Positions 18,084 through 57,300 are shown, numbered from the stretch's first letter. The stretch: DNA of 64,000 nucleotides from Gloeocapsopsis crepidinum LEGE 06123 (GCF_015207655.1 NZ_JADEWN010000014.1:1-64000), one strand, 5' to 3'. Notes: generated by a model from the letters alone, not told the origin. A program made the numbers and translations.

Positions 18084-18086
18084 TCG

Positions 18087-21201: not shown

Positions 21202-21211
21202 CAGGAGGTGT

Positions 21212-26901: not shown

Positions 26902-27894
26902 CTATTGACTACTTATTTTTGAACCCGCACCCAGTAGGTATTGAGAAATATCATCTAAAATAGCATTTGCGCATAAGATATTACCAACAATCCAATAACC
27001 TGAATTAACTGTGTAAATACGGTTATTTTTAACAACATTAAGTAATTGCCAAATTTGATTATCGCGATATCTTTTAAAGTTATTTTCCGAACCTGGATCG
27101 AGTGCTACAAACATGACATCAGCATCAAGTAATTCTATACTTTCTAAACCTACCAATACATAACTATCAGCAGGATTGCTGACTTTTTTTTGTGCTTCTG
27201 GTATGGAAAGCCCAACTTCTTCTAAAATTTTAACAGGAAATGAAAATTGATTTTGAAACTGCGTTAGAGGCGAACCCCCATAGAAACGAATAATAGAAAC
27301 TTCAGTATTTTGATGCTTTTGTTCAATAGCTGCCCGCAGTTTTTCTACGCGCTGTTGATATAGGTTTAATGCTTGCGAAGCTTGCGTCTCTCTATTTAGC
27401 ATTTTGCCGAGTAGTTGCAAGGTTTCTTTCCAAGCTGTTTCATCAAATTGTATCGATACTGTTGGAGCTATTTTTGAAAAAATTCCGTAATTTTCTGCAC
27501 CAATTTCTAGCCCTAAGATTAAATCTGGCTGTAATTCCACAATTTTTTCTAGATTAAGCAGGCTCTCTTTACCAATAGAAATTATCCCCTCAATTTTGTT
27601 ACCAAACTGAGGACCTCGACTACCTAAAGCATTCGATTCAGCAGCAGCAATTGGTTTGAATCCTAAGCCAACTACAGCATCTAAAACGGTTTCATCTGTC
27701 ACTATAATTCGTTGGGGATTTGTAGGAATACAACTTTCTCCCAACTGATGTTTTGTAACTTGACATTCTGATGTTGTAAATTGTCCCCTTGGGTTGCCTT
27801 TAGTAGCAATTTGGTTTGAGCAAGCTATCACTAAAAGATAAGTGAAAGTCACAAGTAAAACAAACTGAAAAAAATGATGTATATTTCTCTTCAT
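26902..27894 (-). CDS. Iron-siderophore ABC transporter substrate-binding lipoprotein (FecB-like)
   Basis: The 330-residue protein begins with a hydrophobic signal ending in a lipobox, LVIAC with C25 as lipidated cysteine. The rest is a helical-backbone binding protein of the FecB/FhuD class: PQRIIVTDETVLDAVVGLGFKPIA, LEKIVELQPDLILG, and the C-terminal ANAILDDISQYLLG. It would bind the ferric siderophore in the periplasm and hand it to an inner-membrane permease. It lies 31 bp downstream of the TonB receptor on the same strand and is certainly in its operon. No permease or ATPase gene for this transporter is in the window. Confidence 0.92.
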   Translation of the reverse strand: MKRNIHHFFQFVLLVTFTYLLVIACSNQIATKGNPRGQFTTSECQVTKHQLGESCIPTNPQRIIVTDETVLDAVVGLGFKPIAAAESNALGSRGPQFGNKIEGIISIGKESLLNLEKIVELQPDLILGLEIGAENYGIFSKIAPTVSIQFDETAWKETLQLLGKMLNRETQASQALNLYQQRVEKLRAAIEQKHQNTEVSIIRFYGGSPLTQFQNQFSFPVKILEEVGLSIPEAQKKVSNPADSYVLVGLESIELLDADVMFVALDPGSENNFKRYRDNQIWQLLNVVKNNRIYTVNSGYWIVGNILCANAILDDISQYLLGAGSKISSQ

Positions 27895-36462: not shown

Positions 36463-39400
36463 ATGAGCGCTACAGATCATGATAGTTTAGAAGGTATTGC
36501 CATCGTTGGTATGGCTGGGCGATTTCCTGGCGCAAAAAATATCACCGAATTTTGGCAAAATTTATGCAATGACGTAGAATCTATTTCTCACTTTCGCGAT
36601 GAGGAATTAATAGCTACTGGAATATCTCCAGCGTTAATCAATCATCCTAATTATGTAAAAGTCGGTGCTTTCTTAGAAGATATTGATTTATTTGATGCAG
36701 CATTTTTTGGGTTTAACCCCAAAGAAGCAGAAATGACTGATCCGCAACACCGATTATTCTTAGAATGTGCTTGGGAAGCCTTAGAAGATGCTGGCTATGA
36801 TTCACTCCGCACTGAAAGTCGAATTGGCGTTTATGCAGGTGCGAGTTTAAGTAACTACTTATCATTTAATTTTAACGACGATCAAATAGGCTCAGCTCAT
36901 AGTTTCCAAAAATTACTGGGGAACGATAAAGATTTTCTGGCTACTCGCGTTTCTTATAAACTAAATTTAACTGGACCAAGCCTCACAGTACAAACTGCTT
37001 GCTCAACATCATTAGTCGCAACATCATTAGCTTGTCAAAGCTTACTCAACTATCAATGCGATATGGCTTTGGCAGGTGGAATTTCGATTCGAGTGCCTCA
37101 AAAAACCGGATATTTGCATCAAGAAGGGGGAATTTTATCTCCTGATGGTCATTGTCGCGCTTTTGATGCCAATGCACAGGGAACGATTATTGGTAATGGC
37201 GTGGGAGTCGTTGTTTTAAAACGGTTATCGGATGCGATCTCTGATGGAGACAACATCTACGCTACAATCCGCAGTACTGCAATTAATAATGATGGTGCTG
37301 GTAAAGTTGGTTATACGGCTCCAAGTGTAAACGGTCAAGCAGAAGCGATTATCGAGGCATTAGCTTTAGCGGGTGTAGAACCTGAGAGTATTAGTTATAT
37401 TGAAGCGCACGGTACGGGAACGGCTTTAGGCGATCCGATTGAAATTTCTGCCTTGACGAATGCTTTTCGTACTAGCACCCAAAAAAATAACTTTTGTGCG
37501 ATCGCTTCGGTGAAAACAAATATTGGGCATTTAGACGCCGCTGCCGGAATCGCTGGTTTAATCAAAACTGCTTTAGCTTTAAAACATCAACTAATACCGC
37601 CTAGTTTAAATTTTTCCCAACCAAATCCTAAAATTGACTTTGCCAATACTCCCTTTTATGTCAATACAGAGTTGAGACAATGGCAAGCAAATGGAACGCC
37701 ACGTCGTGCAGGTGTTAGTTCTCTCGGTATTGGTGGAACGAATGCTCATGCAATTTTAGAAGAAGCGCCAGTGGTTGAAGCATCAAGCCCTGCTCATCCT
37801 TGGCATTTACTCGTTCTTTCTGCTAAGAGTGAAACAGCTTTAGAATCTGCAACAGCCAATTTAGCTGCATATCTCGCACAAAATCCTCATTTAAATCTTG
37901 CTGATGTCGCTTATACCCTCCAAATAGGGCGCAGAGAGTTTAATTATCGTCGGATGGTAGTGTGTCAAAGTATCAGCGATGCGGTGTCTGCTTTGAAGGC
38001 AAAAGAACCACAAAAAGTATTACCACCTACAGAAGCAAACTCGATTACTTTTATGTTTCCTGGGCAAGGTTCGCAGTATGTCAATATGGCGCGGGAACTC
38101 TACGAATATAAGCAATTTCAGGAAGAAGTAGATCGATGTTGTCTCATACTAAAACCGCATTTAGGTTTAGATTTGCGTTCAATCATTTATCCTCGTGAAC
38201 TTGAGAAAGCAGCGATACAACTCAAACAAACATCTTTAGCGCAACCAGCGTTATTCGTTATTGAGTATGCTTTGGCTAAATTGTGGATGTCTTGGGGCAT
38301 TGTTCCGCAAGCGGCGATCGGTCATAGTATTGGGGAATATGTTGCAGCTTGTCTTGCCGGTGTTATATCAATTGAAGATACGCTTGCTTTGGTTGCTTGG
38401 CGCGGAAAACTCATGCAACAAATGCCAGCAGGCGCGATGCTTTCTGTTGCTTTATCAGAAGCAGAACTAAAACCATTACTTCATGAAAACTTATCTTTAG
38501 CTGCTAGTAATGCGCCGAATTTATGCGTTGTCTCCGGAAATTTTAAGTCAGTTGACGCTTTTGAGGAAAAACTCATTAGTTTGGGGGTAAACTGCCGTCG
38601 CTTACATACTTCCCATGCTTTTCATTCTCAAATGATGGAACCTGTGTTGGAACCATTTATCAAGCAATTGAAAAACATCAAATTGAATTCTCCGCAAATT
38701 CCTTTTATCTCAAACCTTACGGGAACCTGGATTACAGCCGAACAAGCAACAGATGTTAACTACTGGGCACAGCATTTACGGCATACAGTACTATTTAATG
38801 CAGGTATTTTGACATTATTGCAAGAAGAAAACCGAATTTTCTTAGAAGTAGGGGCAGGACGAACATTATCTACTTTAGTAAAGCAACATCAATCTCTACA
38901 GCAATTAGTATTACCTTCACTCCGCCATCCCCAGGAAGAGAAATCTGATATTGCTTGCTTGCTTCATACCTTGGGACAACTTTGGTTAGCAGGAGTTGAA
39001 ATTAATTGGTCTGGATTTTATTCTTCGGAAAAACGTCACCGCCTTCCTTTACCAACTTACCCGTTTGAGCGTCAGCGTTATTGGATAGATCAAATCCAAA
39101 CAGAAAGTAACAAACAAAATCAAAAATTAGATCTCAATGACTGGTTTTATGTACCTTCATGGAAGCGAACGATATCGCCTGTATATTTAAATCAGAGTAG
39201 TATAAAGACAAAAAAATCTTGGTTAATATTTCTTGATAATCGTGGTGTGGGTTGCCAAGTTGCAGAAAGACTTAAGCAAGCAAATCAAGAAGTAGTCATT
39301 GTTAGACAGGGAGAAGAATTTGCTAAATGCAATCAACAAGAATATATAATTAATCCTGAAATCAGAGACGATTACGATGTTTTGCTCAAAGAGGTTTGTA

Positions 39401-41025
39401 GTTACAATCAACCCCAACATATTGTTCATTTTTGGAGCGTTACATCTAATGAATGTTTAGAATGGGAAGAAATACAAAAATGTTTCTGGAGTCTATTATT
39501 TTTAGTGCAAGCATTAGGAGAACAAAAAACTGATATCAGTATCGATATCATCTCCAATTACTTACAATACATAAACGATAACGACAATTTGTGTCCAGGG
39601 AAAGCAACAATTCTCGGACTCTGCAAAGTTATTTCTCAAGAATATCCAATTACTTGTCGCAGTATTGATATTGCATTTGATAGTGAGCGATCGCCTCTGG
39701 CGCTGCGCTTCGCGCAATCGCACCAACTAACTGACAGCCTATTTGCAGAAATTACTAGCCCATCTTCAGACTCGATTATTGCATACCGAGGTAGTCAACG
39801 TTGGGTGCAATATTTTGAAAAGTTACCAGTTAAAGACGCAACCTCAAATACTCCTAAGTTACGTCAAGGAGGAGTTTATCTCATTACAGGGGGATTAGGG
39901 AAAATTGGACTAGAAATTGCGCAGTATTTAGCAAAGACAGTAAAAGCTAAATTAGTGTTAATTAATCGTTCAGGATTACCTGTAAAAACTGAATGGCAAG
40001 ATTGGTTATCTCATTATGGTGAAGAAGATCTCATTAGCAGCAAAATCCAGAAAATTCAAATCCTTGAAGAATCGGGTGCTGAAGTTTTAGTGATGCAAGC
40101 TGACGTTGCTAACTGCGAACAAATGCAAGCGGTAGTCAATCAAACCTGTCAGCACTTTGGGACAATTCATGGCGTCATTCATGCTGCGGGAGTTCCTGGG
40201 GAGGGCTTGATTCAATTAAAAAGTCCAGAAACGGCAGAAAAAGTTTTTCTACCAAAGATAAAAGGGACACTTGTATTAGATAATGTTTTACAGGACATTA
40301 ATTTAGATTTCTTTGTTTTATTTTCTTCAATTACTTCGATTTGTGGTGGTTTAGGGCAAGTAGATTATTGTGCTGCGAATGCATTTCTTGATGCTTTTGC
40401 CCAAGCTAATTTTTACAACCGTGATAAATTTACTGTTGCAATTAATTGGGATACGTGGGAAGCAAATAACTGGCAAGACTCACTCACAGCATTTGCTCCA
40501 GATATTCAAGCTTGGTTTCAGCAAATGCGTACCCAATATGGCATAAAATCTTGGGAGGGAGTCAAGGCTTTTGAAAAAGTTCTCTCTTGGCAATTACCAC
40601 AAGTCATTGTCGCGGCACGCAGCATTCAAGATGTTATTGCTCAATATGATAGGTTAAAACTATCCAATTTATTAGAGCAATTAGATAAAAGTTCTAGTAG
40701 AATTACATCAGCACAAAATAATTCAAAAAACAAAGTTGCACCACGAAATTCTATTGAAGCTAAAATTGCAAAGCTTTTTCAAGAAACTTTGGGAATTGAT
40801 AAAGTAGGAATTCATGATAATTTCTTTGATTTAGGTGGTAATTCCTTAATAGGTACTCAACTTGTTTTTCAGTTGCAGCAAGAGTTTCAAACTAACATCT
40901 CTATTAAACTCTTATTTACTGCTCCTTCTATAGCAGAACTAGCCTTAGCAATTGAAGATCAAATGATTGAAGAGTTGAATCAACTCACTGATGAAGAAGC
41001 TGCGGCAATTTTATCAGGTATTTAA
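36463..41025 (+). CDS. Type I PKS module KS-AT-KR-ACP
   Basis: This is a single 1520-residue module. The KS (about 10-435) has C180 in TACSTSL, H316 in EAHGTGT and H356 in NIGHLD. The AT (about 540-850) has S622 in GHSIGE, and HAFH at 718-721, the malonyl-CoA signature. The KR has TGGLGKIG (1142-1149) with S1288/S1289 and Y1302 (VDYCAANAF); the preceding 900-1120 is its structural half. The ACP serine is S1461 (LGGNSL). No DH, ER or MT is present. It extends the acyl-Ser chain by two carbons and reduces the keto group, giving a statine-like gamma-amino-beta-hydroxy acid. The tail LTDEEAAAILSGI is acidic, a docking end for the next NRPS. A palindromic repeat interrupts the KR structural region at 39687-39721. 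Confidence 0.95.
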   Translation: MSATDHDSLEGIAIVGMAGRFPGAKNITEFWQNLCNDVESISHFRDEELIATGISPALINHPNYVKVGAFLEDIDLFDAAFFGFNPKEAEMTDPQHRLFLECAWEALEDAGYDSLRTESRIGVYAGASLSNYLSFNFNDDQIGSAHSFQKLLGNDKDFLATRVSYKLNLTGPSLTVQTACSTSLVATSLACQSLLNYQCDMALAGGISIRVPQKTGYLHQEGGILSPDGHCRAFDANAQGTIIGNGVGVVVLKRLSDAISDGDNIYATIRSTAINNDGAGKVGYTAPSVNGQAEAIIEALALAGVEPESISYIEAHGTGTALGDPIEISALTNAFRTSTQKNNFCAIASVKTNIGHLDAAAGIAGLIKTALALKHQLIPPSLNFSQPNPKIDFANTPFYVNTELRQWQANGTPRRAGVSSLGIGGTNAHAILEEAPVVEASSPAHPWHLLVLSAKSETALESATANLAAYLAQNPHLNLADVAYTLQIGRREFNYRRMVVCQSISDAVSALKAKEPQKVLPPTEANSITFMFPGQGSQYVNMARELYEYKQFQEEVDRCCLILKPHLGLDLRSIIYPRELEKAAIQLKQTSLAQPALFVIEYALAKLWMSWGIVPQAAIGHSIGEYVAACLAGVISIEDTLALVAWRGKLMQQMPAGAMLSVALSEAELKPLLHENLSLAASNAPNLCVVSGNFKSVDAFEEKLISLGVNCRRLHTSHAFHSQMMEPVLEPFIKQLKNIKLNSPQIPFISNLTGTWITAEQATDVNYWAQHLRHTVLFNAGILTLLQEENRIFLEVGAGRTLSTLVKQHQSLQQLVLPSLRHPQEEKSDIACLLHTLGQLWLAGVEINWSGFYSSEKRHRLPLPTYPFERQRYWIDQIQTESNKQNQKLDLNDWFYVPSWKRTISPVYLNQSSIKTKKSWLIFLDNRGVGCQVAERLKQANQEVVIVRQGEEFAKCNQQEYIINPEIRDDYDVLLKEVCSYNQPQHIVHFWSVTSNECLEWEEIQKCFWSLLFLVQALGEQKTDISIDIISNYLQYINDNDNLCPGKATILGLCKVISQEYPITCRSIDIAFDSERSPLALRFAQSHQLTDSLFAEITSPSSDSIIAYRGSQRWVQYFEKLPVKDATSNTPKLRQGGVYLITGGLGKIGLEIAQYLAKTVKAKLVLINRSGLPVKTEWQDWLSHYGEEDLISSKIQKIQILEESGAEVLVMQADVANCEQMQAVVNQTCQHFGTIHGVIHAAGVPGEGLIQLKSPETAEKVFLPKIKGTLVLDNVLQDINLDFFVLFSSITSICGGLGQVDYCAANAFLDAFAQANFYNRDKFTVAINWDTWEANNWQDSLTAFAPDIQAWFQQMRTQYGIKSWEGVKAFEKVLSWQLPQVIVAARSIQDVIAQYDRLKLSNLLEQLDKSSSRITSAQNNSKNKVAPRNSIEAKIAKLFQETLGIDKVGIHDNFFDLGGNSLIGTQLVFQLQQEFQTNISIKLLFTAPSIAELALAIEDQMIEELNQLTDEEAAAILSGI
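39687..39721. repeat. HIP1-linked palindromic repeat inside the PKS gene
   Basis: A 35-base GC-rich insert runs from the HIP1 octamer GCGATCGC to AATCGC and contains a perfect hairpin TGCGC-TTC-GCGCA (39704-39716). It is in frame and encodes the stretch RSPLALRFAQS. Similar GCGATCGCCTCTGGCGCTGCG-type units are dispersed repeats in many cyanobacteria, as I recall. Confidence 0.6.
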
Positions 41026-41096: not shown

Positions 41097-44000
41097 ATGG
41101 ATAGCAATGAAACAGAATTACAACGGCGATCGCAGCTTTCTCCTGTCAAACAGGCTTTGCTGAAAAAACGCTTACAAAACAAAACTCATTCAGATTCACA
41201 ACTCAATCAAATTCCTCAACGTCCACAAAATTGTGCTATCTTGCTATCTTATGCTCAAGAACGGTTATGGTTAGTTGAAGGGTTATCTGGTGCTGCTATA
41301 TACAATATGTTTAGTAGCATTCTAATTAAAGGAAAGCTTGATATATTTGCATTAGAACGCAGTATTCAAGAAATCGTTCAACGCCATGAAATCTTAAGGA
41401 CATCATTCTCAGCCGTAGAAGGACAACCAATTCAGGTCATTGGTTCTACGTCGTTGACATTACCGCTAGTTGATTTGCGACATTTAGCTGTTGACAAGCA
41501 GCAACAAGAAGTTCAACGCTTAACGATATCTGAACAAACGCAAGCTTTCGACTTAGCAAAAGATCCACTGTTGCGAGTTCAGTTGCTGCATTTGAATGAA
41601 GCAGAATACTTGATGCTATTGACTATTCATCATATTGTTGCTGATGCTTGGTCGCGGGGAATTTTCTTGCAAGAGTTAGCAACGCTTTATACCGCCTTCA
41701 GCCAAGGAAAATCTTCTCCTTTATCAAAATTACCCATTCAATATGCAGATTATGCAGTTTGGCAACGACAGCAACTTCAGGGTGAATTGTTAGAAACGCA
41801 GCTGGCTTACTGGCAAGAGAAATTACAGGGTGAATTACCAATTCTGAATTTACCAACCGATCGCCCTCGACCGCGATCGCAGACATACAAAGGTGCAAGT
41901 CTATGCTTTACGTTACCTCAAACACTCACGAATTCACTGCAAGCCTTGAGCCATCAAGAGAGTGTAACATTGTTTGTCACGTTGTTAGCTGCATTCAAGG
42001 TGCTATTGCATCGCTATACCGGACAGGATGATATTTTAGTTGGTTCTCCGTTTGCTAACCGTAACCGACCGGAAGTAGAAGGGTTGATTGGATTTTTCGT
42101 GAATACTTTGGTGTTGCGTAGCGACTTATCGGGTAATGTGAGTTTTCGAGAATTATTAGGTCGAGTACGCGAGGTGGTATTAGGTGCGATCGCCCATCAA
42201 GATTTACCATTTGAAAAGCTATTGGAATCTTTATCGCAGCGTCGTTCCAGTAGTAAGCCTCCGTTTCAAGTCATGTTCTCGTTGCAAAATCTACCAGATG
42301 TCACGCTGGAATTACCAGGCATCACATTAAGTTTTCCCGAAGTAGAAAATCAAACAGCGTTTTTCGATTTGGTTCTGTCGATTACACAGACCAAGCAAGG
42401 ATTAACTGGTGTCATGGAATACAACACCGATTTATTCAATCGAGATGCGATCGCGCGGATGCTAGAACATTATCAGGTTCTACTCAAAGGTATCGTTGCC
42501 AACCCAGACCAGAGTATCGCAACCTTACCATTACTTACCGCGAAAGAACAGGCAACTTTAGCAACATGGCAACAAATCGAGTGCTATTATCCTCAAGATA
42601 AGTGCTTGCATCAGTTATTTGAAGCCCAAGTAGAACAAACACCAAATGCGGTAGCCGTCGTATTTGAAAATGAGCAACTAACATACCGCGAACTCAATCA
42701 AAAAGCAAATCAACTCGCGCATCATCTCCATAGCTTGGGAATTAAAACTCAAGCCAAAGTTGGGTTATGCGTCGAACGTTCGATTGAAATGGTTGTAGGG
42801 ATATTAGGAATTCTCAAAGCGGGTGCAGCTTACGTACCTATCGATCCCAATTACCCACGGCAGAGGTTGGAGTTTATCTTAGCAGATGCACAAGTAGAAT
42901 TACTTCTAACGCAGAGTCAATTCAAGATTGAATATCCAACGCAATTAGCATTAGACACATTCGCTAGCAATACCCAATCAGTTGAAAATCTTAACTTAGA
43001 AGTTACCGCAGATAACATTGCCTACGTCATTTATACTTCTGGTTCTACAGGGACACCCAAAGGAGTTTTGTGTACGCACTACAACGTCGTCCGTCTGTTT
43101 CAAGCGACGCAAGCGTGGTTCAACTTCAATTCCCGCGATGTCTGGACGCTGTTTCACTCGATCGCCTTTGACTTTTCAGTTTGGGAATTATGGGGTGCGT
43201 TACTTCACGGTGGAAAACTCGCGATCGTTCCTTATTGGGTGAGTCGTTCTCCCGAAGAATTTTATGCGATGTTGTTGCAACACAAGGTGACAGTTCTCAA
43301 CCAAACACCCTCAGCATTTCGTCAGTTAATGCGCGTTGATGCTGAACGCGATCGCCACGATTTAAACTTGCGTTTCGTTATTTTTGGCGGCGAAGCGTTA
43401 GAAATCCAAAGTTTGAAGCCTTGGTTAGAAAAACACGGGCGATCGCCGCAGTTAATCAATATGTACGGAATTACCGAAACAACTGTCCATGTTACCTATC
43501 GTCCCATCACCATCGCCGATATCTCCAATCATTGCGGTAGTGTTATTGGTCGTCCCATACCAGATTTGCAAATTTATCTACTAGATCAAAATCAACAACT
43601 TGTACCCATCGGAATTCCAGGAGAAATCTATGTAGGGGGTGCAGGAGTCGCATCAGGTTATCTCAACCGTACTGAAACCAACTCAAAGTTTATTCCTCAT
43701 CTCTTTAACAATAACTCCTCAGCGCGTCTTTATCGAACAGGCGATCTAGCGCGTTACTTAGCAAACGGTGAGATGGAATACTTAGGGCGAATTGACAATC
43801 AGGTGAAAATTCGCGGTTTCCGCATTGAAATCGGCGAAATCGAAACAGTACTAGCTACCCATCCTGAAGTTGCAGAAGTTGTTGTACTCGTCAGAGAACT
43901 TGAAGACAAGCAGATTATTGCCTACGTTGTACCACGGCAAAAACACAGCAAACTTACAACGAATCTGCGTCAGTTCCTGCAACAAAAACTACCCGATTAC

Positions 44001-44450
44001 ATGTTGCCATCTGCCTTCGTTATCTTAGATACATTACCACTCACATCAAACGGTAAAGTAGACAGACAAGCATTACCCGCACCAGATTGTCACAGAACAG
44101 ATGTTACAACTTCCTTAGTTGCACCACGAACACCGATAGAAAAAGCATTAGCAGCAATCTGGTCAGAATTACTTCATGTTGAATTCATAGGCATTCACGA
44201 GAACTTCTTTGAAATAGGCGGACACTCACTTTTAGTAACACAACTTCTGTCCCGCATTCGCCGACAATTTCAAGTAGATTTACCTTTAAAAGTCATTTTC
44301 ACTGTAGGTTTTACAATTGCAGAATTAGCAAAAATTATTAGAGAATACCAACTTCAGCAAGTAGAAACCGACGATATTGTTGCGCTTCTTCAAGAATTAA
44401 ACGAACTCTCAGATCAAGAAGTGCTAATGACACTCAATCAATTGCAGTGA
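41097..44450 (+). CDS. NRPS module C-A(Thr)-PCP
   Basis: The 1117-residue protein starts with a helical segment SQLSPVKQALLKKRL (N-terminal docking). The condensation domain follows (about 45-480). Its catalytic motif reads HHIVADA (178-184), with Ala in place of the final Gly; both histidines and the aspartate are present. The adenylation domain has YTSGSTGTPKG near 646 and code D-F-W-N-I-G-M-V-H-K, which matches threonine. The PCP serine is S1044 (IGGHSL). The C-terminal tail (LSDQEVLMTLNQLQ) is acidic. It adds Thr to the Ser-ketide unit made by the preceding proteins. The gap to the upstream PKS is 71 bp and to the next gene 91 bp. No epimerase is present. Confidence 0.95.
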   Translation: MDSNETELQRRSQLSPVKQALLKKRLQNKTHSDSQLNQIPQRPQNCAILLSYAQERLWLVEGLSGAAIYNMFSSILIKGKLDIFALERSIQEIVQRHEILRTSFSAVEGQPIQVIGSTSLTLPLVDLRHLAVDKQQQEVQRLTISEQTQAFDLAKDPLLRVQLLHLNEAEYLMLLTIHHIVADAWSRGIFLQELATLYTAFSQGKSSPLSKLPIQYADYAVWQRQQLQGELLETQLAYWQEKLQGELPILNLPTDRPRPRSQTYKGASLCFTLPQTLTNSLQALSHQESVTLFVTLLAAFKVLLHRYTGQDDILVGSPFANRNRPEVEGLIGFFVNTLVLRSDLSGNVSFRELLGRVREVVLGAIAHQDLPFEKLLESLSQRRSSSKPPFQVMFSLQNLPDVTLELPGITLSFPEVENQTAFFDLVLSITQTKQGLTGVMEYNTDLFNRDAIARMLEHYQVLLKGIVANPDQSIATLPLLTAKEQATLATWQQIECYYPQDKCLHQLFEAQVEQTPNAVAVVFENEQLTYRELNQKANQLAHHLHSLGIKTQAKVGLCVERSIEMVVGILGILKAGAAYVPIDPNYPRQRLEFILADAQVELLLTQSQFKIEYPTQLALDTFASNTQSVENLNLEVTADNIAYVIYTSGSTGTPKGVLCTHYNVVRLFQATQAWFNFNSRDVWTLFHSIAFDFSVWELWGALLHGGKLAIVPYWVSRSPEEFYAMLLQHKVTVLNQTPSAFRQLMRVDAERDRHDLNLRFVIFGGEALEIQSLKPWLEKHGRSPQLINMYGITETTVHVTYRPITIADISNHCGSVIGRPIPDLQIYLLDQNQQLVPIGIPGEIYVGGAGVASGYLNRTETNSKFIPHLFNNNSSARLYRTGDLARYLANGEMEYLGRIDNQVKIRGFRIEIGEIETVLATHPEVAEVVVLVRELEDKQIIAYVVPRQKHSKLTTNLRQFLQQKLPDYMLPSAFVILDTLPLTSNGKVDRQALPAPDCHRTDVTTSLVAPRTPIEKALAAIWSELLHVEFIGIHENFFEIGGHSLLVTQLLSRIRRQFQVDLPLKVIFTVGFTIAELAKIIREYQLQQVETDDIVALLQELNELSDQEVLMTLNQLQ

Positions 44451-44541: not shown

Positions 44542-47500
44542 ATGGCAAACATCCTACTCACAACACACTGGTCAAACGGAGAAGTCTACCCGTTTATCAA
44601 AATAGGTAAGGAACTGAAAGTGCGGGGGCATAACGTCACCGTCATCACAAACTGCTACTTTGAAAAAGCAGTACAACAAGCAAAGTTAAATTTCCTAGCG
44701 CTAGACACTCCAGAAGAATTTGAGCAGTTAATGACAGAGGGATATTTATTTAATACCCCGCAAGGATTCTTAAAAATTTATCAACAATATGTTTTGCCAA
44801 AAGTAGCCACAGAATATCAATTAATAACTAAACTGTACTCTCCTAAAGAAACTATTTTAGTTGCCCGTTCCACACCAGGAATTGCCGCACGAATCGCCGC
44901 CGAAAAACTAGAAATACCACTCATAGCGGTGATGTCTTCTCCCAGTCATGTATCAACTCAACCGCTAGCCGAAGAAATGATCGGTTCAATTCTGGGTGGT
45001 GAAATTAATCAAATTAGAACAAAAATTGGTCTACCTGTTATAGAAAACTGGTCAGCATGGTTAAGAAATACACCGAGTCAAACAATCGGACTGTGGGCAG
45101 ATTGGTTTTGTGATGCAATTACAGAATCATCTGGAGTCTTGCAAACAGGTTTTATCTGGGACGACGAACCCACAACCAGCGCTATTCCTGCAGATATCCA
45201 AGATTTTTTGCAACAGGAACCACCAATCCTGATTACAGGTGGAACAACATCATTGGCTGGAGAAAAGTTTTTTGAAGTAAGTGCCGCAGCCTGTCAGTTA
45301 CTAGATCGTCCAGGGTTATTAGTAACTCGTCATCAAAAATTGGTTCCTAGCAACCTTCCACAACGTGTGAAGTGGATGAAATACCTGCCATCACTGGCTA
45401 GCTGTATGCCTTACACTAGCGCAATTATCCATCATGGCGGTTTAGTCACAAGCGGTCAAGGCTTAGCAGCAGGGATACCTCAATTAGTTTTAGCGAGTGG
45501 TGCCGATCAACTTTACACTGGTTCTTGTCTGAATCACTTAGGGGTTGGCAAATATCTAACTAGTTCGCAATGGCAACTTGAAGTTGTTGCGCAAAGTCTG
45601 CATCAATTAATCAATTCAGATTTAGTGCGCGATCGCTGTCGAATATTCGCAGATAAGTTTATCGACACTGATCCAGTTGCAACAACTTGTGACGTGATTG
45701 AAGCACAAATATCCCGCCAAAAATCATTCCGCAACGTTTTAGTCGAGGAAGACTTAGAAAACGCATCTCACGCAGCCACAACCAACACCAAACCCCAGAA
45801 AACAACTCACAGCCAACTTCTTGCGCTAGCAGAAAAACTATCTCCCGAAAAACTGGCACTGCTAGAACTAAAGTTGATGCAAAAGGAAAGAAATCCAAAA
45901 ACGATTCCTGCTATTCCCCGCCAACCCGAACTCAATTATTTTCCCCTTTCGTTTGCGCAACAACGCCTGTGGTTTCTCGATCAATTAGAACCAGGCAACC
46001 CTACATATAACATCTCTGGTGCGGTTCAACTTACGGGAAGGCTAAACATTACAGCCCTAGAACAATCGTTTCAGGCATTAGTGCAACGCCATGAAGCGTT
46101 AAGAACGACTTTTGCGATCGTACAAGAACAACCAATGCAAGCGATCGCTGCAAGTTTGCCGTTTGCAATCCCAATAGTAAATCTACAAGAACTTCCCCAA
46201 AGCCAACAGCAACAACAAATTCAATCTCTTATTGCTGAAGAACAAATTCGTCCGTTTGATCTTAACCAAGGTTCATTACTACGAGTTACGTTGCTACAGC
46301 TGAATCCAGAAAACCACGTGATGTTGTTTTCCATGCATCACATTATCTCTGATGGCTGGTCAATGGGAATCTTGATTCGAGAAATTGCTCAATTTTACGA
46401 AGCGTTTTCTACAGGGAAGCTTCCTGCACTTCCCCCATTACCAATTCAGTATGCAGACTTTGCAGTTTGGCAGCGTCAATTGTTGCAAACAGAAGTACTA
46501 AAAACCCAGATGAATTATTGGAAGCGGCAATTAGCAGGCGATCTTCCTGTACTCAATTTAAGCAGCGATAGCCCCCGTCCGCAAGTTACAAGTTGCCAAG
46601 GTGCGACTTATACATTTGCATTACCCACAGATTTATCCCAAAAACTCCAAACGCTTTCTCATCAAGCAGGTGTCACCCTGTTTATGACTTTACTAGCAGC
46701 TTTTAAAACTCTCTTGCACCGCTATACAAACCAAGTAGATATTATTGTTGGTACTGATGTTGCTAACCGTAACCATGCGGAAATTGAAGGATTAATTGGC
46801 TTTTTTATTAACCTATTAGTCTTGCGAACCGATTTATCAGGTAATCCAACTTTTCGCGAACTTTTAGAACGAGTACGCGAGGTAGCCATAGCAGCATACA
46901 CTCATCAAGATCTCCCTTTTGCAAAATTAGTAGAAGAACTGCAACCAGAACGTCATTCACACCCAACTCCGCTATTTCAAATTTTATTTGTTATGCAAAA
47001 TATCCCTATAGCACAGCAGTCATTATTGGGTTTGAACATTAAACAATTTGAAGTTGATATTAAAACGACGAAGTTTGATTTAGCATTATTTATGAGTGAA
47101 ACCGAGCAAGGAATAGTCGGTAACTGGAACTATAATACTGAGTTATTTACTGCTAATAATATTGCTCAGATAACAAGTCATTTTCAAGTTTTGCTGAATA
47201 GCATCGTTATCCAACCCGATGCGCGAATTAGCAGTTTGGAAATTTTTACACAAACAGAAATAAAACAACAAGTTATGCAACAAAGTGAACGTAAAGCTTT
47301 CAAACGAGAAAAGTTTATGAAAGTTGCACCTAAAGCTGTTAATCTATCAACACAATTAGTTAAACTAGATTATCTCCAGCCAGGGCAAACATTACCTTTA
47401 GTCATTAGTCCCGCTAATGATGGAATTAATTTAATCGACTGGACTAAAAATAACAGTAATTTCATCGAGAAAGAATTACTCAAACACGGCGCAATTCTGT

Positions 47501-48321
47501 TTAGAGGTTTTCTAAAATCTGTCTCTGAATTTGAAAGCTTTGCACAAACTATTTGTCCAAACTTGTTTGGAGAATATGGCGATCTACCACGCGAGGGAGT
47601 TAGCGGTAAAGTTTACACCTCGACTCCTTATCCACCAGATAAAGCAATTTTATTCCATAACGAAAGTTCTCATTTACATCGCTTTCCTTTAAAAATTTGG
47701 TTTTTCTGCGTTCAACCAGCAGCACAGGGAGGAGAAACACCACTAGTAGATTGTCGCCAAATATATCAATTACTCGACCCCAAAACCAAAGAAAAGTTTG
47801 CCGATAAAAAGTTATTGTACATTCGTAATTATATAGATGGTTTAGATGTTAGCTGGCAAGAGTTCTTTCATACTACAGAAAAAGCGAAAATTGAGGATTT
47901 TTGTCGTCAATCAGCTACTAATTTTGAATGGCTTACCAATGATAATTTGAAAACTTCAAAAGTATGTCATGCCATAGCACAACACCCAATAACTCATGAA
48001 GCTGTCTTTTTTAACCAAATTCAGTTGCATCATATCGCTTGTTTAGAGCCAGCCGTGCGCGAATCTCTATTCTCTTTATTTGGCAAAGACAAGTTACCGC
48101 GTAATGTTTACTACGGTGATGGTTCGCCAATTGAAGACGCAGTAATAGAAGAAGTTTTGGATGTTTATTCGCAAGCAACAATTAGTTTCCCTTGGCAAAA
48201 AGGCGATGTCTTAATGTTAGATAATATGCTCGTTGCTCACGGACGGAATCCTTATGTTGGACCACGTAAGATTGTGGTAGCGATGGGTGAAATGGTTAAC
48301 AGCGAAGACATTATTAGTTAG
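44542..48321 (+). CDS. Glycosyltransferase-condensation-TauD hydroxylase fusion protein
   Basis: The 1259-residue protein joins three unrelated domains. Residues 1-400 are a GT1/UGT-like glycosyltransferase: N-terminal ILLTTHWSNGEVYPFIKIGKEL, ITGGTTS, and the donor motif HHGG (297-300) with AAGIPQLVLASGADQ. An NRPS docking-like helix with LSPEK (433-437) precedes a condensation domain (about 455-890) with HHIISDG at 599-605. The C-terminus (about 930-1259) is a TauD/TfdA-type Fe(II)/2-oxoglutarate dioxygenase with H1039-x-E1041, distal H1233 and 2-oxoglutarate-binding R1242. It lacks A and PCP domains, so C and TauD must serve the Asp module on the next protein. Beta-hydroxylation of Asp is the predicted reaction. 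The glycosyltransferase may glycosylate the siderophore. No frameshift is visible. Confidence 0.88.
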   Translation: MANILLTTHWSNGEVYPFIKIGKELKVRGHNVTVITNCYFEKAVQQAKLNFLALDTPEEFEQLMTEGYLFNTPQGFLKIYQQYVLPKVATEYQLITKLYSPKETILVARSTPGIAARIAAEKLEIPLIAVMSSPSHVSTQPLAEEMIGSILGGEINQIRTKIGLPVIENWSAWLRNTPSQTIGLWADWFCDAITESSGVLQTGFIWDDEPTTSAIPADIQDFLQQEPPILITGGTTSLAGEKFFEVSAAACQLLDRPGLLVTRHQKLVPSNLPQRVKWMKYLPSLASCMPYTSAIIHHGGLVTSGQGLAAGIPQLVLASGADQLYTGSCLNHLGVGKYLTSSQWQLEVVAQSLHQLINSDLVRDRCRIFADKFIDTDPVATTCDVIEAQISRQKSFRNVLVEEDLENASHAATTNTKPQKTTHSQLLALAEKLSPEKLALLELKLMQKERNPKTIPAIPRQPELNYFPLSFAQQRLWFLDQLEPGNPTYNISGAVQLTGRLNITALEQSFQALVQRHEALRTTFAIVQEQPMQAIAASLPFAIPIVNLQELPQSQQQQQIQSLIAEEQIRPFDLNQGSLLRVTLLQLNPENHVMLFSMHHIISDGWSMGILIREIAQFYEAFSTGKLPALPPLPIQYADFAVWQRQLLQTEVLKTQMNYWKRQLAGDLPVLNLSSDSPRPQVTSCQGATYTFALPTDLSQKLQTLSHQAGVTLFMTLLAAFKTLLHRYTNQVDIIVGTDVANRNHAEIEGLIGFFINLLVLRTDLSGNPTFRELLERVREVAIAAYTHQDLPFAKLVEELQPERHSHPTPLFQILFVMQNIPIAQQSLLGLNIKQFEVDIKTTKFDLALFMSETEQGIVGNWNYNTELFTANNIAQITSHFQVLLNSIVIQPDARISSLEIFTQTEIKQQVMQQSERKAFKREKFMKVAPKAVNLSTQLVKLDYLQPGQTLPLVISPANDGINLIDWTKNNSNFIEKELLKHGAILFRGFLKSVSEFESFAQTICPNLFGEYGDLPREGVSGKVYTSTPYPPDKAILFHNESSHLHRFPLKIWFFCVQPAAQGGETPLVDCRQIYQLLDPKTKEKFADKKLLYIRNYIDGLDVSWQEFFHTTEKAKIEDFCRQSATNFEWLTNDNLKTSKVCHAIAQHPITHEAVFFNQIQLHHIACLEPAVRESLFSLFGKDKLPRNVYYGDGSPIEDAVIEEVLDVYSQATISFPWQKGDVLMLDNMLVAHGRNPYVGPRKIVVAMGEMVNSEDIIS

Positions 48322-48336
48322 AAATTGAGAATTAGA

Positions 48337-51300
48337 ATGCAATCAAATACTATTCAAGGATTTCGGCTTTCTCCTCAACAGAAACGTCTTTGGTCATTAC
48401 AAGCAAATAGTTCAGTTTATAAGACGCAGTGTGCAGTTATTATTGAAGGCAATCTTAATGTTGATTTGTTAAAGAAATCTATAGAAAAAATTACTGATAA
48501 GCATGAAATGCTTCGTACTAGGTTTCACTGCTTATCGGGTATGAAAATGCCGATAATGGTTGTAGAAAACTACAGCTTTCCTATATGGCAAGAGCTAAAT
48601 TGGACAGATTGTAGCCCGCAGGAGCAATTAACAAAATTTGATTTGCTTTTTGATGAGCTAATTTATCAAGATATTAACTGGATTGGCAATTACTTTAATG
48701 TCTATTTAGTTCAATTTACTACAAAAAAGTATATTTTAATTATTAGCTTACCTGCAATTTATGCAGATACCTGGACGCTTGCTAATGTTGTTCAAGAAAT
48801 TAGCAATCTTTATCAAATTTATCTAAAAAATCATCATAATAATCAAGAAGAGGTTGTTCAATACGTACAATTTGCAGAATGGCAAAATCAATTACTCGAA
48901 GAATCAGACGCTGAAGCAGGTAAAAATTATTGGAGTCAGGTTTCATCTTTACCCTTAAATACCTTATTACCCTTTGAAGCTAAAAAGTATCAATATACAT
49001 TTTCACCAGCATCTTTAAGGCTGAGGCTTGCTCCTAATATTACAAATAAATATGCAACTACCGAGATATTTTTACTTACCTGTTGGCAAATATTGCTATG
49101 GCGATTGACAAAGCAAGCAGATATTACAATCGGAATGGTAGCTCGTGGTAGAGAATATGAAGAATTACATGATGCTTTAGGTTTATTTGCTAAAACTTTA
49201 CCAATTCGTTGTCAATTAACTGCTGACTTGTCTTTTACAGATGTGTTGCATTTAGTTGAAAAACAAGTAGCTGACGCGGAAGAGTGGCAAGATTATTTTG
49301 TTGATGAGTGTTTGGGAGAAGATAGCAATCGCATTGCGTTTCCGTTTGGTTTTGAATTTTCGCAATCTCCTATTTTAAGCTCTAGTGCAGCAGTTAATTT
49401 TGCAATTTATCGACAATATACTTGTATCGAACCATTTAAAATAAAATTATCCTGCATCGAAAGTAATAATTTATTCATTGACTTCAGCTACAACCAAGAA
49501 TTATTTACTTTAGAAAGTATTCAACAGATAGCAGCACAATTCCAAACTTTAGTTACTAGCGCTGCTCAAAACCCAGAAACTCCCATTAGTAAGCTAGAAA
49601 TATTAAGTCCTAGCGATCGCCAAAAATTGTTAGTAGATTTTAACAATACTCAAAGAGATTTTCCTCTCAATCGATGCATTCACCAAATTTTTGAAGAACA
49701 AGCTGCAAATCACCCAGACAAAATTGCTGTTGTTTTTGAAGATGAGCAATTAACTTACGCTGAACTCAATCATAAAGCCAACCAACTCGCCCATTATTTA
49801 CGCTCTTTAAAAATCGATTCAGAACAAATTGTCGGAATTTACCTGGAACGTTCCCTAGAAACAATTGTCGCTATTCTAGGTATCCTCAAGGCTGGCTATG
49901 CATATCTTGTTTTTGATGTCAATCTGCCAGCAGAAGCAATAGCAATGCGATCGCACATTGCTGAAGTAGCATTAGTTTTAACTCAAGAGTCTTTAGCGGC
50001 AAAGTTACCAAATAACCTAACGTATCAATGTCTTGATAAAAATATTCTTCAACAAAGTCAAGAAAATCTCTCTATTCAGGTTAGTAGCGATAATTTGGTG
50101 TATGTTGTCTTTACCTCTGGCTCAACGGGTACACCCAAAGGAGTTGCCATTGAGCATCGACAACTGCTCAATTATGTATGGGGTATTTTAGAGAGATTAT
50201 CTTTACCCGCAGGTGCTAGCTTTGCGACTGTTTCCACTTTCGCAGCAGATTTAGGTAACACCGCAGTTTTCTCAGCACTATGTAGCGGAGGCTGTTTGCA
50301 TATAGTTGCCCAACACCGAACTACCGACAGCAAATTACTTGCAGATTACTTTCAGCGTCATTCTGTGGATTGTTTAAAAATAGTTCCTTCGCATTTAGCT
50401 GCGTTGTTAGAGGATGGTGCTAAATCAATATTGCCATTGCAAAGATTAATTTTAGGTGGTGAAGCAGCGAGTTGGAGTTTGATTGAACAGATCCGACAAT
50501 TATCACCACACTGCCATATCATTAATCATTATGGTCCCACGGAAACTACCGTCGGGGTCATGACGTATGCCATCAGCAACGAGCAAACAATTTATACCAC
50601 GGAAACAGTTCCTCTTGGTCGTCCCTTACCAAATATTCAAGCGTACGTCTTAGACGAGCAGTTGCAGCTACTACCAATTGGCGTGCCAGGAGAATTGTAT
50701 ATTGGTGGCGCTGGGTTAGGACGGGGCTATCTCAATTCACCAGAATTAACAAAAGAAAAATTTATTACACATTCCTTTGGTAATTCTCCGCAAAGGCTGT
50801 ATCGTACTGGTGATTTAGTTCGTTATCTGCCTGATGGCAATCTAGAGTTTTTAGGACGCATTGACAATCAGGTAAAAGTACGCGGTTTTCGCATTGAACT
50901 TGAGGAAATTGAAGTTGTTCTTAGCCAACACCACCAAATACAACAAGCTGTTGTTGCCCTCCAGGAAGACAAGCCAGGGGATAAACGCTTAATTGCTTAC
51001 TTAGTCACCAAGCCAAATCAACAACTCAGTATTGATGAACTGCGGCAGTTTTTACAACAGAAATTGCCTGAATATATGCTGCCTTCAGGTTTTGTGTTGC
51101 TGAAAAAGCTACCTCTCACTGCAAATGGTAAAGTCAACCGCCAAGCATTACCCGCGCCAGAACGACAATTAGAATCAGCGACAATTGTTGCTCCTAGAAC
51201 TCCGGTTGAAGAAGTACTGACTGGAATCTGGGCAGAAATCCTCGGTGTCAAACTAGGGATCTATGATAACTTCTTTACATTAGGCGGTCATTCGCTCTTA

Positions 51301-54300
51301 GCAACTCAGGTTATTTCCCGCTTACGCAAAGTTTTTGAGATCGATTTACCTTTACGCCAGTTGTTTGAAACGCCTACAGTTGCAGAGATTGCTACCCATA
51401 TAGAAACAGCCATGCGGGCGGGGGTAACACCAGATACATCACCACTGGTACGAGATCCCAAATTACCCCTCTCCTTTGCCCAGCAACGCTTATGGTTTTT
51501 AGACCAATTCAATCCTCAGAGTCCTTTTTATAGCCTACCTCGTACGGTTCGTCTGACTGGAAACTTAAATGTCGATGCATTTCACGCCAGTATCAACGAG
51601 ATCGTGCGCCGTCATGAAGCTTTGCGGACAAACTTTATCAGCGTTGACGGAGAACCAGTACAGCAGATTGCTGCCTCAATGCACGTACCTTTGCCTATTA
51701 TCGACTTGCGCGAGTTTCCAGAACCAATACGGGAAGAAAAAGCCAAACAACTAGCACTTACCGAAGCTCAAAAAGGATTTGACTTGAGTGCAGATCCTCT
51801 ACTGCGGGTGACTTTATTACGCATGGCAGAGGATGAACATATTTTACTGTTCGCCATGCACCATATCATTTCCGATGGCTGGTCAATTGGGATATTAATT
51901 AATGAGCTAACAACTCTGTATCAAGCCTTCAGTGCAGGTAAACCTTCGCCATTACCTGAACTACTCATTCAGTATGCAGATTTTGCCACCTGGCAACACC
52001 GCTGGCTGCAAACTGAACTTGAGCCACAACTGAATTATTGGCAGCAACAACTCGCAGACATTACACCCCTACAATTGCCTACCGACTTACCTCGCCCAGC
52101 AGTCCAAAGCTTTCGCGGTGCCACCACAACTATATCACTCTCACCTGAACTCACTAGCGCACTCCAAGCCTTAAGCCGTCGTCAAGGCGTGACTCTGTTC
52201 ATGACATTACTCGCGGCGTTCCAGACGTTGCTATATCGCTACAGCGGGCAAAGTGATATTGCTGTTGGTTCACCAATTGCGAATCGTAACCGCGTGGAAA
52301 TTGAGCCATTAATCGGCTTTTTTGCGAACACCTTAGTTTTAAGAAGCAACGTTGTTGGAACTCTTAGCTTTGCAGATTTGCTGCAACAAGTGCGACAAAT
52401 GACGTTAGCAGCGTATACGCATCAAGATTTACCGTTCGAGTACTTAGTCGCGCAACTGCAACCCGATCGCAGCCTCGATCGCAACCCACTATTTCAGGTG
52501 ATGTTTGCACTGCAAAGTGCGGCGGTTGAACTCAACTTACCAGGTTTAAGTGTAAGTGTACTCGAATGCGATCGCACTTCGGCAATCTTCGATTTAAGTC
52601 TATCACTGCAAGAAACTGATTCCGGACTATCGGGCAGTTTAGAATACAACACTGACTTGTTTCATGCGGAAACGATCGCGCGGATGGTGGAACACTTTGA
52701 GATTTTGCTAGAAGAAATTGTGGCAAATCCGCAGCAACACCTGAAGAGTTTACCCCTGCTGAGTCGCGCCGAACAACACCAATTACTCGTCGAGTGGAAC
52801 AACACGCACGTAGATTATCCCCTCAATAAGTGCATTCACGAGTTGTTTGCCGCACAAGTCGAAAAAACACCAGATGCTTTAGCGGTGGTTTGCGGTGAAA
52901 ATCTTAGCTATCGCGAACTCGATCGCCAAGCTAATTGTTTAGCGCAGTATTTACAAACATTAGGTGTTAAACCAGAATTAGTTGGTCTTTGCGTTGAGCG
53001 TTCCTTAGATATGGTTGTGGGGATGATGGCAATCCTCAAAGCAGGTGGGGCTTATGTTCCCTTAGATCCAGCTTATCCTCAAGAACGTCTAGCCTATATT
53101 GTAGAAGATGCAAAGCTGACAGTCATACTGACTCAGACGCACTTACACTCAAAACTACCTCCGCATCAAGCACAGATAATCTGTCTGGATAGTGATGAGA
53201 TAAATTATCAGGCTGACATAGAGTATTCTAGCGATCGCGTTAACGCTGAAAATCTAGCTTATGTTATCTACACTTCTGGTTCCACAGGAAAGCCCAAGGG
53301 AGTTTTAGTTAGTCATCGCGCTTTAGTCAACCATAGCCTTGCAGTCGCGCAAGCTTACCAACTGCAACCGCAGGATCGAGTTTTACAATTTGCTTCAATC
53401 AGTTTTGATGTTGCAGCCGAAGAAATTTTTGCATCTTGGTTGAGTGGCGCAACTGTTGTCATTCGCACTGAACAAATATCAAGTTTTGCCAATTTCCAGC
53501 AATTCTTATCACAGCAAAAACTCTCCGTCCTCAATTTACCAACGGCTTATTGGCACGAGTGGGTATCCTATCTGCAATTTACGAACACTTCCTTACCTTC
53601 TACAGTGCGCTTAGTCATTGTTGGAACCGAACAAGCATCATCAGAAAAACTTGCACTTTGGCAAAAAATTGCAAGTCAAAACGTCCGGTGGTTAAATGCC
53701 TATGGACCAACCGAAGCAACAATTGGCGTGACAGTCTACGAAGCCAATACCTATACAGAGCAAGCTCATGCTTACGTACCCGTTGGTCGTCCAATTGCCA
53801 ACACCCAAATCTATATCCTTGACCAACATCTCAATCCTACACCTGTAGGAATTCCTGGCGAATTATACATCGGTGGTGCTTGTTTGGCAAAGGGTTATCT
53901 CAATCAACCAAAACTGACGCTTGAGAAATTTATTCCCAATCCTTTTAGCCGCGAACCAGATGCTTGTTTGTACAAAACTGGTGATGTCGCTCGCTACCTA
54001 CCCGATGGAAATATTGAACTCATCGGACGCATTGACGATCAAGTAAAAATTCGTGGTTTTCGCATTGAATTAGGAGAGATTCGGGCTGTACTGCAACAGC
54101 ATCCAGATGTATCGGTAGCAGTTGTCCAGCCCCAAGCAGATATTGCTAATGGCAAACGCTTAGTTGCCTACATTGTACCAAACCGAGATATAGATACTGC
54201 TGAATTACGTCGTTATCTGCAACAAAAATTACCCGACTACATGGTTCCGTGGGCATTTGTACTGTTAGACAGTCTACCATTAACACCCAACGGTAAATTA

Positions 54301-57300
54301 GACCTTCAAGCACTGCCAGCACCACAGATAGAACGTAGCTCAACTCTACCCAAAACTGCGGCTGAGGAAGTTGTTGCAGATGTTTGGAAACAAGTTCTCA
54401 ATCTCGAACAAGTGGGCATTCAAGACAACTTTTTTGAGTTAGGCGGACATTCATTACTCGCGACACAAGTCACTTCCCGCCTGAGTAGAATTTTTCAAAT
54501 CGAATTTCCTATCCGTTGCTTGTTTGAGGCTCCTACTATTGAAGGTTTGGTAGAGGCATTAGCAAAACTTGGTAATGGGCAAGATATTGAAAAAATTGCT
54601 CAAACGATCAAAGCCCAACCACAACAAATAGAGACAGCAACACAGATTATTCCCAGGAGAAATACTGATTCTTGTCCACTTTCGTTTGCTCAAGCGCGGC
54701 TCTGGTTTCTTAACCAACTAGGGACAGATAGTGCTTACAACATCTTTGAAGCAGTATGTCTCAAGGGTTGGCTCGATATTGAGATATTACAACAGAGCTT
54801 CAATGAAATCCTCTGCCGTCACGAAGTTTTAAGGACAAGCTTTGCACTTGTTGACGGTCAACCTGTACAGATCATTGCTCCTACTTTAAGCTTAACGATT
54901 TCAGTTGTAGACCTGCGGCATTTACCCAACAGCGAAAAAGCAGCAGAAGTTAAACGCCTTGCAAAATCGGAAGCTCAATGCCCCTTTAATTTAGCGCAAG
55001 CCCCATTGTTGCGAGTAACCCTACTTAAATTGGGTGAAACCGAGCATGTGGTGTTATTAACTATGCACCATATCATTGCAGATGGATGGTCAATTGGGAT
55101 TTTAATTAATGAACTCACAACTCTATATCAAGCCTTCAGTGCAGGTAAACCTTCGCCATTAACTGAACTACCGATTCAGTATGCAGATTTTGCCACCTGG
55201 CAACACCACTGGCTACAAAGTGAACTTGAGCCACAACTGAATTATTGGCAGCAACAACTCGCAGACATCACACCACTGCAACTACCTACCGACTTACCCC
55301 GCCCAGCAGTCCAAAGCTTTCGCGGTGCAACGACAACTGTTTCGCTATCACCCGCACTCACGGCGGCACTCCAAGCCTTAAGTCGTCGTCAAGGCGTAAC
55401 TTTATTCATGACATTACTCGCGGCGTTCCAGACGTTGCTATATCGCTACAGCGGGCAAAGTGATATTGCTGTTGGTTCACCAATTGCGAATCGTAACCGC
55501 GTGGAAATTGAGCCATTAATCGGCTTTTTTGTCAATACCTTGGTGTTGCGCAGTTATCTGACAAGCAACCAAAGCTTTGCAGATTTGCTGCAACAAGTGC
55601 GACAAATGACGTTAGCAGCGTATACGCATCAAGATTTACCGTTCGAGTACTTAGTCGCGCAACTGCAACCCGATCGCAGCCTGGATCGCAATCCACTATT
55701 TCAGGTGATGTTTGCCTTGCAAAATGCAGCGGTTGAACTCAAGTTACCAGATTTGAATTTGAGTGTGCTGGAATGCGATCGCACTTCGGCAATCTTCGAT
55801 TTAAGTCTATCACTGCAAGAAACTGATTCCGGACTACGAGGAGGTTTGCAGTACAATACCGACTTATTCCACGCTGAGACAATTGCGCGGATGGTGGAAC
55901 ACTTTGAGATTTTGTTAGAAGGAATTGTGGCAAATCCGCAGCAAGAGATTAAAAGTTTACCCCTGCTGAGTCGCGCCGAACAACACCGATTACTCGTCGA
56001 GTGGAACGATACGAAAATCGATTATCAACAAAACTCTTGTATTCACGAGTTATTTGCCGCACAAGTCGAACAAACACCCAATGCAGTAGCAGTTATCTTT
56101 GAGAATCAACAATTAACCTACCGAGAACTCAACGAACGTGCCAATCAACTCGCGCACTACTTGCAAAAACTGGGAGTCAAACCAGAGGTTTTAGTTGGCG
56201 TCTGTCTAGAACGTTCCTTAGAAATGGCGATCGCCCTCTTAGGTATCTTGAAAGCGGGTGGCGCTTATGTACCTCTAGACCCTGACTATCCACCAGAACG
56301 CCTAGCTTTTATGCTAGCAGATTCACAAACACCAGTTTTATTAACTCAACAACAACTGCTGACCAGATTTCCCGAACATCATTGTCTTTGTCTAGATACG
56401 GATTGGCAGGCGATCGCACAAGAAAGCTTAGAAAATCCTGTTGCGAGCGTCACCCTCGATAATTTAGCGTATACAATCTATACCTCTGGCTCTACAGGCA
56501 AGCCCAAGGGAGCAATGAATACCCACAAGGGTATCAGTAATCGTTTGTTGTGGATGCAAGCTGCATTGCAATTAACACCCAGCGATCGAGTTTTACAAAA
56601 GACTTCGTTTAGTTTTGATGTTTCTGTTTGGGAATTTTTCTTACCTTTATTAACCGGAGCAAGTCTTGTTTTAGCAAAACCTGGCGGTCATCGCGATAGT
56701 GTTTATCTAGCCGAATTAATTACCCAGCAACAAATTACAACACTTCACTTTGTTCCCTCAATGCTGCAAGTGTTTCTGCAATCAGGATTAGAATGCCATA
56801 GCTTGAAAAATGTCATTTGCAGTGGTGAGGCGCTTGACTATGAACTGCAAGAAAAATTCTTTGAGCATTGCAATGCAAAACTATATAACCTTTATGGTCC
56901 TACTGAAGCATCAATTGATGTTACCTGGTGGATTTGCCAACCAGATCAAATGCGGATTGTTCCTATCGGTTCTCCCATTGCAAATACGCAAATCTATATA
57001 GTCGATCGCTACTTGCAACCTGTTCCGATTGGCGTTCCTGGTGAGTTACACATTGGCGGTGTGGGATTAGCCAGGGGTTATTGGCAACGACCCGATTTAA
57101 CCGCCGAGAAGTTTATTCCCAATCCTTTCAGTACAGAACCAGGTGACTATTTATACAAGACTGGAGATTTGGCTCGCTATCTACCCGATGGCAATATTGA
57201 ATACCTCGGACGAATTGACGATCAGGTAAAAATTCGCGGTTTTCGCATTGAATTAGGAGAAATTGCCGCGCAGTTGAATCAGCATCCGCCAGTGCAGCAG

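Follow-up and report, generated by a model that had tools for sequence, protein, structure and literature searches.

In the cyanobacterium Gloeocapsopsis crepidinum LEGE 06123, one reading frame joins a glycosyltransferase (GT), a condensation (C) domain and a TauD-type hydroxylase, and on balance we favor the view that the resulting GT-C-TauD protein belongs, as a three-domain accessory subunit, to an assembly line for a cyanochelin-type lipopeptide siderophore, with the GT adding a sugar. The frame lies within a 64,000-nucleotide stretch of DNA (GCF_015207655.1 NZ_JADEWN010000014.1:1-64000), the whole of which we refer to as the window.

Three domains in one frame

The open reading frame (44542..48321, + strand) begins with ATG, contains no internal stops and encodes 1259 aa. 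A Shine-Dalgarno-like AAGGA lies just 5' of the ATG at 44542. The next NRPS gene follows closely: its TTG lies 3 bases, and an ATG close by 15 bases, beyond the stop codon. Pfam calls Glyco_transf_28 (aa 4-127; marginal, at 26.4 bits against a cut-off of 26.2), EryCIII-like_C (aa 269-370, E 2.6e-12), Condensation (aa 467-909, E 8e-120) and TauD (aa 961-1247, E 3e-43). HHGG is found at aa 297, HHIISDG at 599, FHNE at 1038 and AHGR at 1232, and the H-N-E...H...R motif of the TauD domain is intact. Frame, Pfam calls and motif positions thus bear out the preliminary description of three domains with intact motifs in one uninterrupted frame.

44542..48321, + strand: GT-C-TauD subunit, 1259 aa (ORF; Pfam; frame matched in the congener G001, Desmonostoc vinosum and Hydrococcus rivularis)
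44542..45726, + strand: N-terminal domain, aa 1-395, predicted GT-B (GT1/MGT-like) (Pfam PF03033 and PF06722; model; structural matches; dN/dS)
44566..44592, + strand: HWSNGEVYP, acceptor-side catalytic base position (E14; in relatives D in GDV) (alignments)
45430..45456, + strand: HHGGLVTSG, donor-phosphate loop, compared with HHGGxGTTA (alignments; identical in 4/4 fused GTs)
45499..45510, + strand: GADQ, donor-sugar contact motif (GADR in Hydrococcus) (alignment)
45727..45939, + strand: linker with the NRPS-subunit N-terminal leader LSPEKLALLELKLM (dN/dS 0.66; leader kept in 4/4 fusions)
45940..47268, + strand: condensation domain, HHIISDG at 46336-46356 (Pfam; alignment)
47422..48282, + strand: TauD-type Fe(II)/alpha-ketoglutarate dioxygenase, Asp beta-hydroxylase clade (Pfam; motif alignment; tree)

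Neither Pfam nor the domain profiles find an A or PCP domain in the 1259-aa protein. This part of the preliminary description stands; its corollary, that the protein acts wholly in trans, does not hold in that general form, C-TauD being half of a split module with a fixed neighbor (see below).

Recurrence of the fusion in four genomes

GT, C and TauD occur in one frame in four genomes belonging to three cyanobacterial families. Besides the window strain, these are a second species of the genus, in which the fusion is 92% identical overall, Desmonostoc vinosum HA7617-LM4 (GT 67% identical to the window GT) and Hydrococcus rivularis NIES-593 (62%); in the latter two the per-domain identity is 62-73% and Pfam calls the same four families. 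Because the same frame is present in four separate assemblies, with GT identity down to 62%, we take it to be genuine. The leader LSPEKLALLELKLM, which marks a subunit start and yet lies within the linker, would be expected if separate GT and C-TauD genes had been merged by a sequencing error; the uninterrupted frame in four separate assemblies, whose GTs have diverged to 62% identity, leaves such an artefact with a negligible probability, and we ruled out sequencing and assembly error on that ground. A missed stop between the GT and C parts, which the preliminary description had allowed for, is likewise very unlikely, as the frame is intact in three other genomes. Between the window strain and its congener, dN/dS is 0.18 for the GT, 0.15 for C, 0.10 for TauD and 0.66 for the GT-C linker; this pattern fits functional domains with a loose linker between them, and by this measure purifying selection acts on the GT domain.

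Queries with the GT domain or with an alignment returned the fusion only in the window genome, the congener and Desmonostoc; Hydrococcus was added by an alignment-based scan of genome contigs, and a scan of genome contigs with the window GT as sole query gave zero matches. No further fusion was found by GT search in the samples of the order, class and phylum and in one family. In these genome samples, which overlap and cover part of the species, the fusion was found in four genomes only, and a widespread architecture was dismissed. Among the PF06722 matches listed for 215 genomes of the order, no EryCIII-type GT was fused to another megasynthase. The sole very long frame among these matches, sorted by E-value, encodes 1615 aa (G045, L046:7339-12183) and combines an H-type lectin region with an EryCIII-type GT, with no NRPS.

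The siderophore locus

The fusion gene is embedded in the following set of genes, whose residue assignments (Ser, Thr, Asp, Asp/Asn-like, Orn-like) we presume from general knowledge of A-domain codes.

25365..26675, - strand: MFS transporter, possible exporter (annotation)
26902..27894, - strand: iron-siderophore periplasmic binding protein (annotation)
27926..30619, - strand: TonB-dependent siderophore receptor with N-terminal AMIN domain (annotation)
31177..36459, + strand: FAAL-ACP-C-A(Ser)-PCP loading subunit (domain annotation; A code)
36463..41025, + strand: PKS KS-AT-KR-ACP, adding a ketide hydroxyl, a possible acceptor (domain annotation)
41097..44450, + strand: C-A(Thr, DFWNIGMVH)-PCP, upstream of the fusion, Thr being a candidate acceptor (Pfam; A code)
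48325..57855, + strand: I-A(Asp, DLTKIGHVG)-PCP-C-A(DVENIGAIG)-PCP-C-A(Ser)-PCP, downstream partner (domain profiles; A codes; alignment)
57848..63550, + strand: PKS KS-AT-cMT-KR-ACP (Pfam)

Beyond the window (L020) follow, in order, a lone C, a lone TauD and I-A(DLTKVGEVG, Asp/Asn-like)-PCP, and then C-A(DVGEIGSID, Orn-like)-PCP-reductase, an aminotransferase, a type II thioesterase and a penicillin-amidase-type acylase. The features of a cyanochelin-type cluster are present, namely a FAAL start, a PKS/NRPS hybrid line, uptake genes nearby (TonB receptor and iron-siderophore binding protein) and two Asp-type modules each with a TauD, fused for the first (DLTKIGHVG) and free-standing for the second (DLTKVGEVG). 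The TonB receptor, the binding protein and the two Asp-hydroxylase modules support the siderophore setting proposed earlier, and to judge from their annotation the receptor, the binding protein and the MFS gene complete a siderophore locus.

C-TauD as half of a split module

In 28 of the 28 clusters with a readable next gene (the window cluster and 27 others; domain profiles built from the window), I-A(Asp-like)-PCP comes next after each C plus TauD pair, whether the two are fused or lie side by side. Here, I denotes a C-like domain with SLPAxxAD or a similar sequence in place of HHxxxDG. The interface-like domain that opens the 48325 ORF has SLPAIYADT at this position, and the histidines of HHxxxDG are gone in all aligned I domains and kept in all C domains adjoining TauD. 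That C-TauD is followed by I-A-PCP in every readable cluster argues for one split beta-OH-Asp module, and the constancy of I-A(Asp)-PCP in the next gene argues that C-TauD works in trans on a fixed neighbor. With high confidence, we thus assign C-TauD as the predicted condensation and Asp beta-hydroxylase half of a split cyanochelin-type module.

C-TauD fusions are already known. In the cyanochelin B cluster of Leptolyngbya sp. NIES-3755 (AP017310.1), the C-TauD of CcsFGH is followed by CcsI, the Asp module; experiments have established threo beta-OH-Asp in cyanochelin B, and the authors assign L-threo-beta-OH-Asp to the CcsI position (PMC12628792). The C-TauD parts of CcsFGH and of the window protein are 55% identical. 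Both lines have C-TauD followed by an interface-like C-A(Asp)-PCP, a FAAL/PKS/NRPS hybrid layout, a terminal reductase and two beta-OH-Asp units (predicted here), with one hydroxylase fused and one free-standing. Unlike in the window fusion, however, the C-TauD of CcsFGH stands behind two full NRPS modules, with Gly upstream and no GT. Potashchelin PtcB is likewise a TauD hydroxylase fused to C, proposed to act on the Asp of the adjacent module (PMC7100376); it has C and TauD in common with the window fusion but is proteobacterial, with no GT mentioned. For such hydroxylases and interface domains, profiles exist in antiSMASH 8 (PMC12230676), and the beta-hydroxylase groups CyanoBH_Asp1/2 comprise TauD-family Asp hydroxylases, fused or free (PMC12971057). 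The preliminary description had considered that the whole architecture might prove common and characterized: this applies to the C-TauD part, which is common and described (CcsFGH, PtcB), whereas the N-terminal GT, found in four genomes, is what is unusual. The window TauD resembles the siderophore beta-hydroxylase/interface systems in being an apparent Asp hydroxylase working with a C-like interface domain; siderophore beta-hydroxylases are said to act with interface domains (reportedly by Reitz et al. 2019).

Origin of the fusion

Most relatives have the PCP of the preceding module ahead of C-TauD, while in a few (G007 and G015) C-TauD is a free ORF with nothing ahead of C; in the four fusion genomes, the GT stands where relatives have the upstream PCP. 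The four GT-bearing C domains form one clade in the C-domain tree (support 100/99), as do the four GT-bearing sequences in the C-TauD tree (99/99), from which it follows that the GT joined once. Because the linker keeps the NRPS leader LSPEKLALLELKLM, the GT appears to have been placed in front of a pre-existing subunit that already started with C. In the TauD-only tree, the TauD domain of the Desmonostoc fusion (L043:10001-13768) groups with Nostoc, its C domain grouping with the GT fusions, and a single history for the whole subunit was rejected on this account. The same grouping suggests that the TauD part was exchanged later, probably by recombination inside the Desmonostoc subunit gene.

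Proposed working of the subunit

The three-domain architecture, the division of the module between two genes and the conservation of both are directly observed, and three steps can be proposed for them. First, the C domain would accept the acyl-Ser-ketide-Thr chain, which the upstream subunit (41097-44450) would carry on its Thr-loaded PCP, and condense it with the Asp loaded on the first PCP of 48325-57855, whose C-like domain is without catalytic histidines. Second, TauD, docked via the interface-like domain, would beta-hydroxylate the PCP-bound Asp to give the iron-binding beta-OH-Asp, probably of L-threo configuration as for CcsFGH. For these two steps, family membership and context give us high confidence. 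Third, and with moderate confidence, we propose that the N-terminal GT-B domain would use a nucleotide-sugar as donor and glycosylate a hydroxyl, either on the chain or on the finished product.

The GT domain

The AlphaFold model of the GT (pLDDT 75, pTM 0.74) finds its best structural match in CalG1 (Z 30.9, rmsd 3.7, 352 residues), with CalG2, UGT51 and GtfD as other near structures over the whole domain, and as modeled the domain has a GT-B fold. The fused GT resembles the GT1/MGT-like antibiotic glycosyltransferases CalG1, GtfD and OleD and the sterol enzyme UGT51 in HHGG, in DQ and in a fold that matches along the entire domain (best Z 31); these enzymes, however, are free-standing with a canonical GxGT loop, which reads GLVT in the fused GT. 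Within the donor motif HxGxGT...DQ, HHGG, T303 and D322-Q323 are present, the second G of GxGT is V302, and Hydrococcus has D-R. At the catalytic-base position, which is H or D in GT1/MGT-like enzymes, 4/4 fused GTs have E14 and free relatives D. Since the donor loop departs from HHGGxGTT, activity could be altered or lost, and the deviant HHGGLVTSG may accordingly reflect a different donor specificity or a loss of activity.

If activity were lost, a dead GT-B fold could serve a structural role, replacing the PCP-C link and docking the upstream Thr-PCP subunit on C, with no sugar added. Such a role would be in keeping with HHGGLVTSG instead of HHGGxGTTA at the donor phosphate, with E rather than D at the base position, with the covalently linked PCP that relatives hold at that place, and with the marginal N-terminal Pfam match (26.4 bits versus 26.2). 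We nevertheless consider it unlikely, given that 4/4 fused GTs keep HHGG, T303, D322 and, at the base position, an acidic residue, and that these GTs are conserved over their whole length at 62-67% identity. Moreover, a lost PCP-C link is normally served elsewhere in NRPSs by short docking segments, not by a 395-aa enzyme.

The Desmonostoc cluster includes another GT (L025:5809-7143), which is free-standing, has the canonical loop HHGGIGT and is encoded between the FAAL protein and the first PKS.

Acceptor, donor and timing

In all four fusion clusters, the A domain immediately preceding the GT has the code DFWNIGMVH, which denotes Thr; clusters lacking a GT mostly have Gly at this place, the one clear case of Thr being Nostoc sp. 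UHCC 0926. Because a Thr module is directly upstream in 4/4 and the GT occupies the PCP position, the Thr side chain is plausibly the leading acceptor, with the Ser and ketide hydroxyls as alternatives. However, the Nostoc cluster has Thr upstream without a GT, so that Thr may simply be ancestral, and since the clusters share ancestry the association of Thr with the GT is correlative and does not amount to a test. The cluster showed no genes for sugar biosynthesis, which would point to a housekeeping nucleotide-sugar as donor. The best reading of the locus is that the product would be a glycosylated cyanochelin-like siderophore, with a lipopeptide predicted to run acyl-Ser-ketide-Thr-OHAsp-X-Ser-methylketide-OHAsp/Asn-terminal residue.

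When the sugar would be attached is a separate matter. One tentative possibility, which we would not call likely, is that the GT, sitting at the PCP-to-C junction, sugars the PCP-bound Thr just before C passes the chain to Asp; were this so, sugar attachment, peptide bond formation and beta-hydroxylation would be performed by one polypeptide. Alternatively, and as a sub-case of the favored explanation with regard to timing, the GT could act on the released siderophore, or on an intermediate in self-protection or export, the fusion then serving co-expression only. GT1/MGT-type relatives such as CalG, GtfA and OleD act on released aglycones, and the Desmonostoc cluster contains a second, free GT gene, both of which are compatible with such late action; fusion to one specific subunit and junction, kept in 4/4 genomes, and the adjacency of Thr in 4/4 argue in the opposite direction, and we regard this alternative as possible, if somewhat doubtful. 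Enterobactin offers an example of such late action, being glycosylated by the free-standing GT IroB.

Significance

What is new here is a conserved, single-origin N-terminal GT on a known C-hydroxylase half-module. In the open-licence literature searched, we found no report of a siderophore pathway whose GT is fused to an NRPS, no account of an NRPS subunit with a built-in GT, no glycosylated beta-OH-Asp siderophore and no mention of a GT on the same chain as a siderophore beta-hydroxylase; the domain order GT1-C-TauD, which the preliminary description had called undescribed, is indeed absent from these papers. Sugars on siderophores alter their solubility, their affinity for membranes and how competitors recognize them, glucosylated enterobactin being an example. 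The GT-C-TauD order offers a sequence handle for finding producers, and glycosylation during or after assembly could be told apart using just the GT domain and the Thr PCP, both of them small proteins.

Neighboring genes and modules

The second hydroxylated module (L020:2227-5385; contig 66227-69385) has the code DLTKVGEVG, which is nearer to Asn than to Asp. The same code occurs in the congener, and DLTKIGEVG in Desmonostoc and Nostoc UHCC 0926; this module may therefore yield beta-OH-Asn or have a relaxed code. The penicillin-amidase-type (PvdQ-like) acylase adjoins the cluster downstream of the window (L020:12676-14817; contig 76676-78817), is also found beside the Desmonostoc cluster (L027:14718-16826), and has a counterpart annotated as acylase in the same place in Leptolyngbya boryana (L038:19251-21392). 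PvdQ trims the acyl tail of pyoverdine, and by analogy this acylase might do the same to the fatty-acyl tail here. A separate operon (14305-22222), which adjoins a two-component system and lies upstream of the siderophore locus, encodes three glycosyltransferases, an ABC transporter and two APH-type kinases.
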